Source of the DNA: Vasconcelosia minhoensis LEGE 07310
GTDB taxonomy: Bacteria; Cyanobacteriota; Cyanobacteriia; Phormidesmidales; Phormidesmidaceae
Assembly: GCF_015207255.1 (NCBI RefSeq)
Contig: NZ_JADEXG010000048.1
Span: 1-43,077 of the forward strand
DNA: 43,077 bases
Direction of reading: 5' to 3'
Numbering within the stretch: position 1 is the stretch's first letter; every line of letters begins with the position of its first letter. A program made the translations under genes and the position numbers. Of the stretch, positions 37,229-38,222 are shown piece after piece. Under the pieces are notes generated by a model. That model saw only the letters and a program-made list of their open reading frames with translations. It searched no databases and was not told the origin of the DNA.

Positions 37229-37601
37229 ATTTTCCTTCCTTCTGAAAAAGGGTAATGGCATTTAAGTCGTACTCATTACGACTTCTTTTAGGATGATAGG
37301 CTAAGCTTACACCAGCCCACCCTGTTTCGGAATGTCAAAGCGGCATTTCGGTTACAATGCTTAATGTCAGCGCGAAAACTGATATGTCGCGCGAAAGTAG
37401 GCTCCTGACAGAACGGAAACCGTTAACGCTGTTGCAAGACCTGAAAGCGAAAATTTTCGAGTTGCCGTTCGCAGGTCGGCCTGCGTCGGTGAGCGCCATT
37501 GTTGAGCCCTGATAGAACACGTCAGTCGTTTAGCCTGAACGCTGATCAGTCTCGATTCGACCTGCTATGTCCCGCTGCAAATCTTGAGGCCAGCGGTTTG
37601 C
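37229..37601. promoter_or_regulatory. katG upstream region
   Basis: 373 bp between the peroxiredoxin stop and the katG start. It contains a 21-bp palindrome at 37264-37284, annotated separately, and two similar GTC-GCGCGAAA segments near 37365 and 37388. A short minus frame at 37335-37520 lacks a ribosome-binding site and resembles nothing known, so it is not annotated. A clear -35/-10 pair for katG was not found. Confidence 0.4.
37264..37284. promoter_or_regulatory. palindrome upstream of katG, probable operator
   Basis: AAGTCGTA and TACGACTT are perfect 8-base inverted arms around CTCAT. It is 36-56 bases upstream of the katG ATG. Its core GTACTCATTAC matches a palindrome upstream of the peroxiredoxin gene at nine of eleven positions. 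It does not look like the Fur or PerR boxes I know, nor a LexA box. Confidence 0.6.
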
Positions 37602-38195
37602 CTAAGCAGAGAGCATCGCTCGGCACATTTGCATCAGCACAGCCGTCTGCTCGGGTTTCTCGGCTGCCGGGTTGAGATAGGACAACATCGTCTCAGCATT
37701 AGAGACTTCGGGTATCGACTCAAAACCATCTCGTTCAATGAACATTTTTTCAATCATCCTGTTCTTGACTAGCATAGAATAGCGCCAAGAGCGCTGCCCC
37801 ATCCCTTTGTCAGAAAGGTTCACCATCATGCCCATGGCGCGGGTAAAGTCGCCATTTACATCGGGAATGAAGCGTACCCGATCGGCCTTTTCTTCCTTAG
37901 CCCAAGTCGCCAGCGAAAACGGATCATTCACCGAAATACAGATAATGTCATCGACCCCGTTGGCTCGAAAGACCTCGGCGTACTCGTTGTATCCTAGCAA
38001 TTGAACAGGAGAGTATGGACAGGTAAAGGCTCCCGTAACTGCAAACACGACTACGGTTTTGAAATCAAAGAGATCTACCGTTGAAAGATCGTAACAACCC
38101 GTCTCTGACAGCATCCGAAAGGTGACTTGGGGGACAGGCTGTCCCTCACGGTTGAACAGCATTTTCCCAGCTCCTGACTCACAGACAACATCCAT
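37602..38195 (-). CDS. peroxiredoxin (Prx5/redoxin type) with displaced active-site cysteine
   Basis: A 197-residue redoxin-fold protein predicted to reduce peroxides. It has the Prx5-like order VVVFAVTGAFT, a GYNEYAEVFRANGVDDIICISVNDPF segment, AKEEKADRVRFIPD and KGMGQRSWRYSMLV. The canonical motif would read GAFTPTCS; here it reads GAFTCPYS, so the residue at the peroxidatic position is Tyr61 and the only nearby cysteine, Cys59, is two residues earlier. Other cysteines are at 5, 34 and 86, with one near the C-terminus. Whether Cys59 works is unknown. Its strand and position match katG, and both genes share a palindromic upstream motif. Confidence 0.85.
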   Translation of the reverse strand: MDVVCESGAGKMLFNREGQPVPQVTFRMLSETGCYDLSTVDLFDFKTVVVFAVTGAFTCPYSPVQLLGYNEYAEVFRANGVDDIICISVNDPFSLATWAKEEKADRVRFIPDVNGDFTRAMGMMVNLSDKGMGQRSWRYSMLVKNRMIEKMFIERDGFESIPEVSNAETMLSYLNPAAEKPEQTAVLMQMCRAMLSA

Positions 38196-38211
38196 ACCGT
38201 TTGCCTAGAAT

Positions 38212-38222
38212 GTAGTCACTAC
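38212..38222. promoter_or_regulatory. palindrome upstream of the peroxiredoxin gene, probable operator
   Basis: GTAGT-C-ACTAC is a perfect 11-base palindrome 17-27 bases upstream of the peroxiredoxin ATG. Its core is nine of eleven identical with the centre of the palindrome upstream of katG (GTACTCATTAC), and both have TT at the same distance on the right side. Confidence 0.5.

Follow-up and report, generated by a model that had tools for sequence, protein, structure and literature searches.

Organization of the prx-katG locus

The window analyzed here, meaning the whole 43-kb stretch (43,077 nucleotides), contains a catalase-peroxidase gene and a peroxiredoxin gene arranged in tandem on the minus strand, with a palindrome upstream of each. 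The relevant features are as follows:

34871..37228, minus strand: katG, catalase-peroxidase HPI (Pfam peroxidase and NCBIfam TIGR00198), with a probable start at 37228 supported by the MTSSQM... start conserved in relatives
37229..37601, minus strand: prx-katG spacer carrying the predicted operator, 373 bp (38-75 bp in most relatives, where the operator lies before prx)
37264..37284, minus strand: predicted FurC (PerR)-type operator of katG, AAGTCGTAATGAGTACGACTT in the katG sense, assigned from its conservation, its matrix score and its match to published FurC boxes
37602..38162, minus strand: prx, peroxiredoxin of the Redoxin family (Pfam PF08534); the ORF opens at 38195, with the likely start Met12 at 38162
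38212..38222, minus strand: prx-side palindrome, GTAGTGACTAC in the prx sense and GTAGTCACTAC on the plus strand; weak, possibly a low-affinity FurC site or a chance occurrence

The katG ORF spans 34871-37261, its probable start at 37228 is preceded by AGAAGGAAGGA, and the encoded protein has an N-terminal extension of ~55 residues. The true start of prx is probably the ATG at 38162 (Met12) rather than the one at 38195, because in most relatives an in-frame TAA occurs at the aligned place, just before a GGAGC Shine-Dalgarno sequence. With this start, the prx palindrome would lie 50-60 bases upstream of the gene, not 17-27. Two further katG genes are present in this genome (C133:35729-37984 and C49:75344-77653; ~60% identity), and neither is preceded by the box described below.

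A short LMxxWR motif was observed both in the C-terminal tail of Prx (window 37602-37650; PEQTAVLMQMWRTMLSA in relatives) and in the N-terminal extension of KatG (window 37140-37228; CPFPMSGKLMEIWRAI) in many genomes carrying the operon. It is perhaps a common targeting or docking peptide.

The palindrome upstream of katG

The katG-side palindrome (37264-37284; AAGTCGTACTCATTACGACTT) is 21 bp long, with two perfect 8-bp arms around a 5-nt centre, and is located 36-56 bases upstream of the katG ATG at 37228. The first-pass annotation had described this palindrome and a related one 17-27 bases upstream of the ATG at 38195; the coordinates, the distances to the ATGs of the two ORFs, and the identity of 9 of 11 bases between the 11-mers GTACTCATTAC (katG) and GTAGTCACTAC (prx) were all confirmed. 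By itself, the katG palindrome is not exceptional, since the window contains eight inverted repeats with 8-bp arms, compared with a mean of 3.4 in Markov shuffles. The pattern GTANTNANTAC has only two matches in the window, the katG and prx palindromes, but it showed no enrichment genome-wide (28 matches versus 35 for the reversed control) and its count was therefore dropped as evidence. The core ASTCRTNAYGAST has five exact matches in the genome, which is approximately the number expected by chance, and only the two located in promoters (C24 and C161) survive when the extended pattern is applied.

It is the conservation of the katG site and its weight-matrix score that place it above chance. 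The matrix was built from 89 sites found in relatives, none of them from this genome. The katG site obtained 35.4 bits, the highest score in the window, where the best unrelated place reached -4.3; the 89 reference sites themselves have a median of 38.8 bits and a minimum of 19.8.

To judge from the sites compared, the conserved part of the motif is a Fur-type array of the hexamer ASTCRT, and not the GTA-N5-TAC centre. The fullest sites consist of four hexamers, A-AATCAT-ACTCGT-T-ATGAGT-ATGATT-T, which form a 27-bp array (AAATCATACTCGTTATGAGTATGATTT). The katG site can be read as AGTCGT-A-ATGAGT-ACGACT, with three of the half-sites that make up the full four-hexamer array, and has the architecture typical of the Fur family (7-1-7 inverted repeat or hexamer array). 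NtcA, whose site is GTA-N8-TAC, was rejected as a candidate because the spacing in the katG site is N5. A sigma-70 scan at the katG box revealed no clear -35/-10 pair and nothing convincing.

Conservation of the box and its regulon in related genomes

Comparison of 21 loci in which prx and katG are neighbours identified the box in 16. Each of these has a single box, which is found ahead of prx or, where the spacer is long, ahead of katG. In 12 loci the two genes are adjacent or separated by a few tens of bases, and the box, typically AACTCGTAGTGAGTATGACTT, precedes prx. In another four (this genome, G001, G003 and G031) it precedes katG within a spacer of ~285-396 bp. In the remaining five (G002, G007, G015, G032 and G033), katG is placed before prx and no box was found. 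The box is also present at three katG loci lacking an adjoining peroxiredoxin gene (L028, L030 and L078).

Upstream of prx in several loci (L042/L048, L049, L050, L055, L056 and L076) there is a conserved leader element, CTACTCATCAATCTCGTAGTTAAGAAG...CTAACTGATGTTGAATGYGAGTAAGGAGC, containing a possible small stem AGTTAR/YTAACT; it has no clear counterpart in the window.

The pattern ASTCRTNAYGAGTAYGMYTT was scanned in 59 related genomes, allowing at most one mismatch, and its sites proved to be far commoner than those of the reversed-pattern control. For 92 sites a script picked the closest suitable ORF as the neighbouring gene, and individual assignments may therefore be in error. Dps-like ferritin genes account for 36 of the 92 sites, followed by genes for NADPH-dependent FMN reductase (10), sulfiredoxin (6; identity confirmed against solved sulfiredoxins) and FtsH (4). 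The other genes adjoining the box encode (i) Prx-Grx and related PrxII proteins, KatG and 2-Cys peroxiredoxin, (ii) NADPH-thioredoxin reductase with a thioredoxin domain and monofunctional catalase, and (iii) a ZIP/ZupT transporter and a sigma factor. As assigned, this gene set is the regulon expected of PerR, and ntrC, zupT, ftsH, srx and prx agree with Anabaena FurC.

The proposal of the first-pass annotation that the two peroxide-removing genes share one regulator is supported by these data: a single box stands in front of the operon-like pair that prx and katG form in relatives, and the same box precedes many other peroxide-defence genes. Enrichment in front of stress genes and conservation in relatives, the lack of which had been named as grounds for abandoning the idea, were both checked, and the shared regulator was not refuted.

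A gene for a SpoIID-domain protein adjoins the box in 11 loci (e.g., L217 and L230-L233), and is divergent from dps in several of them. Two weak FurC-like sites were noted in this genome, one near a ferredoxin/metallo-beta-lactamase-fold gene (C125:87191-87210) and the other before a gene encoding a sigma-70-family factor (C79:35848-35867).

Similarity to FurC boxes and co-occurrence with furC

The box consensus of FurC (PerR, Alr0957) of Anabaena sp. PCC 7120 is CAAAATCATAACGACTTTG, and the site CGAACTCATAACGACTACG of the Anabaena ntrC gene (NADPH-thioredoxin reductase C) was EMSA-positive for FurC (PMC10406281). The katG site, AGTCGTAATGAGT, fits the core ASTCRTNAYGAST, as does the Anabaena ntrC site, while the Anabaena consensus departs from it at one position. 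In G039 (L287), AAACTCATAACGACTACG precedes the orthologous NADPH-thioredoxin reductase gene, whose domains were checked. The earlier statement that the motif matches no known Fur or PerR box is thus wrong for the cyanobacterial type, since the site fits both Anabaena sequences and the Fur-type 7-1-7 design; it arose because the boxes of Bacillus or Synechocystis differ from those of the FurC type.

The Bacillus subtilis PerR box, TTATAATNATTATAA, governs targets of the dps/mrgA, catalase and ahpC type. It shares with the katG box the 7-1-7 inverted-repeat design and this type of target, whereas the half-sites differ (ASTCRT here, TATAAT in Bacillus). In Synechocystis PCC 6803, PerR (Slr1738), acting at the sll1621 (ahpC) promoter, is likewise a Fur-family peroxide regulator of a peroxiredoxin gene, but its operator was described as an AT-only stretch of ~30 bp without a consensus (PMC3293774). 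The katG box is not AT-only, and a box of this type was rejected because C or G occupies conserved positions of the site. The resemblance to the Anabaena system extends beyond the core to overlapping targets (prx, sulfiredoxin, ntrC, ftsH, zupT and furC). In contrast to Anabaena, the box here would drive a predicted prx-katG operon and in relatives often dps, and the box of relatives extends to the four-hexamer array within the promoter.

The FurC of this genome is encoded at C39:43652-44089 (L179), away from katG. The protein has His45 and His98 at the Anabaena FurC numbering, and on the basis of the box, the regulon and this histidine numbering it is considered a probable ortholog of Alr0957. 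The co-occurrence of FurC and the box was analyzed in 195 genomes, each at least 95% complete. Both were present in 132 genomes, FurC alone in 21, the box alone in five, and neither in 37 (Fisher p = 1.4e-19, a value that overstates independence because the genomes are related to each other). Within the first set of 59 genomes, all six near-complete FurC-less genomes lacked the box. There are exceptions in both directions: G099 has exact boxes and no FurC match, and 21 of the 153 FurC-positive genomes have no box at ≤1 mismatch.

The furC promoters carry a conserved variant of the box, AAGYTAAAGTGGTACTGAGTATG, which scored at least 8 bits in 25 of 30 furC loci. In the present genome, the corresponding self-site scored 3.3 bits and is degenerate.

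Proposed regulation of katG by FurC

The 21-bp katG palindrome is most probably an operator of FurC, the PerR-type peroxide sensor of cyanobacteria belonging to the Fur family; we assign this prediction a probability of about 0.88. It would bring new genes under a control system that is already known, and would not be a new system. According to the proposed mechanism, FurC dimers with Fe(II) or Mn(II) would bind to the ASTCRT hexamer array across the promoter of katG and, in this metal-loaded form, would keep katG expression low. Peroxide would inactivate FurC and so release katG along with the other members of the regulon (Prx-Grx and others).

Promoter occlusion by metal-loaded FurC, relieved by peroxide, is the likely mode, because about half of the reference set (44 of 89 sites) is located between TTGNNN and TAYGA at promoter spacing, whereas other trinucleotides gave a median of 7. 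This arrangement is plain at the Prx-Grx gene in this genome, where TTGTCA is followed by the box, the right part of which reads TATGAT. We infer the binding of FurC in this organism, the sign of regulation and, for the weaker prx palindrome, a role as a low-affinity FurC site. The sign at katG is given as presumptive since a clear -35/-10 pair was not seen there and Anabaena FurC is also able to activate genes.

It is unlikely that the katG palindrome is instead the operator of another regulator, such as FurA, Zur, a PerR of the Slr1738 type, or a non-Fur protein (RexT or OxyR). FurA and two Zur-like proteins are also encoded in this genome, PerR boxes differ among cyanobacteria, as the AT-only Slr1738 motif without a consensus illustrates, and the boxes of G099 occur without a FurC match. 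However, the box and its regulon agree in detail with those of FurC in Anabaena, also with regard to ntrC and zupT, the box co-occurs with furC across genomes, and its variant recurs in furC promoters. Less probable still is an RNA hairpin in the katG leader, controlling stability or translation, in place of a DNA site. The transcript would indeed fold into an 8-bp hairpin (-8.7 kcal/mol, z = -4.1), but in relatives two C residues face each other in the third pair of AACTCGTAGTGAGTATGACTT, which is thereby broken, whereas the Fur-type half-sites are retained. The site is also found at widely varying distances (36 to 385 bp) and before unrelated genes, and Rfam gives no match; an RNA hairpin or Rfam element was rejected on these grounds.

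Whether the palindrome before prx belongs to the same system is a separate matter, and the chance that it is unrelated to the katG operator, being fortuitous or a remnant of the prx leader, seems slightly better than even. With the 89-site matrix it scored 1.4 bits, below every reference site, and the same layout in G001 and G031 shows no match before prx (G003 was excluded because the contig ends there). The 11-mer pattern is not enriched genome-wide, and the conserved leader element that relatives have near that place is a different one, GTAGTGTCTCTACTCATCAATCTCGTAG. Against this, the prx site ranks directly behind the katG site among the distinct places of the window; unrelated DNA attains 1.4 bits or more at 2.1e-5 per position, and therefore with a background of ~0.01 for the prx upstream region, which is suggestive. 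Its core also equals, exactly or nearly, the core of certain furC self-sites (L180 and L182). A matrix built from furC self-sites, however, gave it only 1.7 bits, a value that unrelated DNA attains at 1.2e-4 per position. The claim that the same palindrome precedes both genes thus finds only weak support: a related sequence is present before prx and may be a low-affinity FurC site or a chance occurrence, but it scores 1.4 bits against 35.4 for the katG site.

The FurC operators could, quite speculatively, constitute a graded set, with full four-hexamer arrays in the dps, prx and katG promoters and the weakened but conserved variant before furC, and possibly before prx here. If so, the genes would be released at different peroxide levels.

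The assignment to FurC provides a concrete candidate regulator for the prx-katG peroxide defence of this Leptolyngbya-like family. It also yields a sharper definition of the FurC/PerR operator, as an ASTCRT hexamer array, which could serve for predictions of the peroxide regulon across most cyanobacteria. The consensus published for Anabaena is loose, and none emerged from the work on Synechocystis.

A further difference from Anabaena concerns the regulator itself. A C86-C86 disulfide has been proposed for Anabaena FurC (PMC13421787). At the position of Cys86, the FurC of this genome and all aligned relatives have Ser or Ala, with the exception of the Nostoc protein L330 (L179, L180-L208, L329 and L330 compared), and the C86-C86 redox mechanism may therefore not be general.
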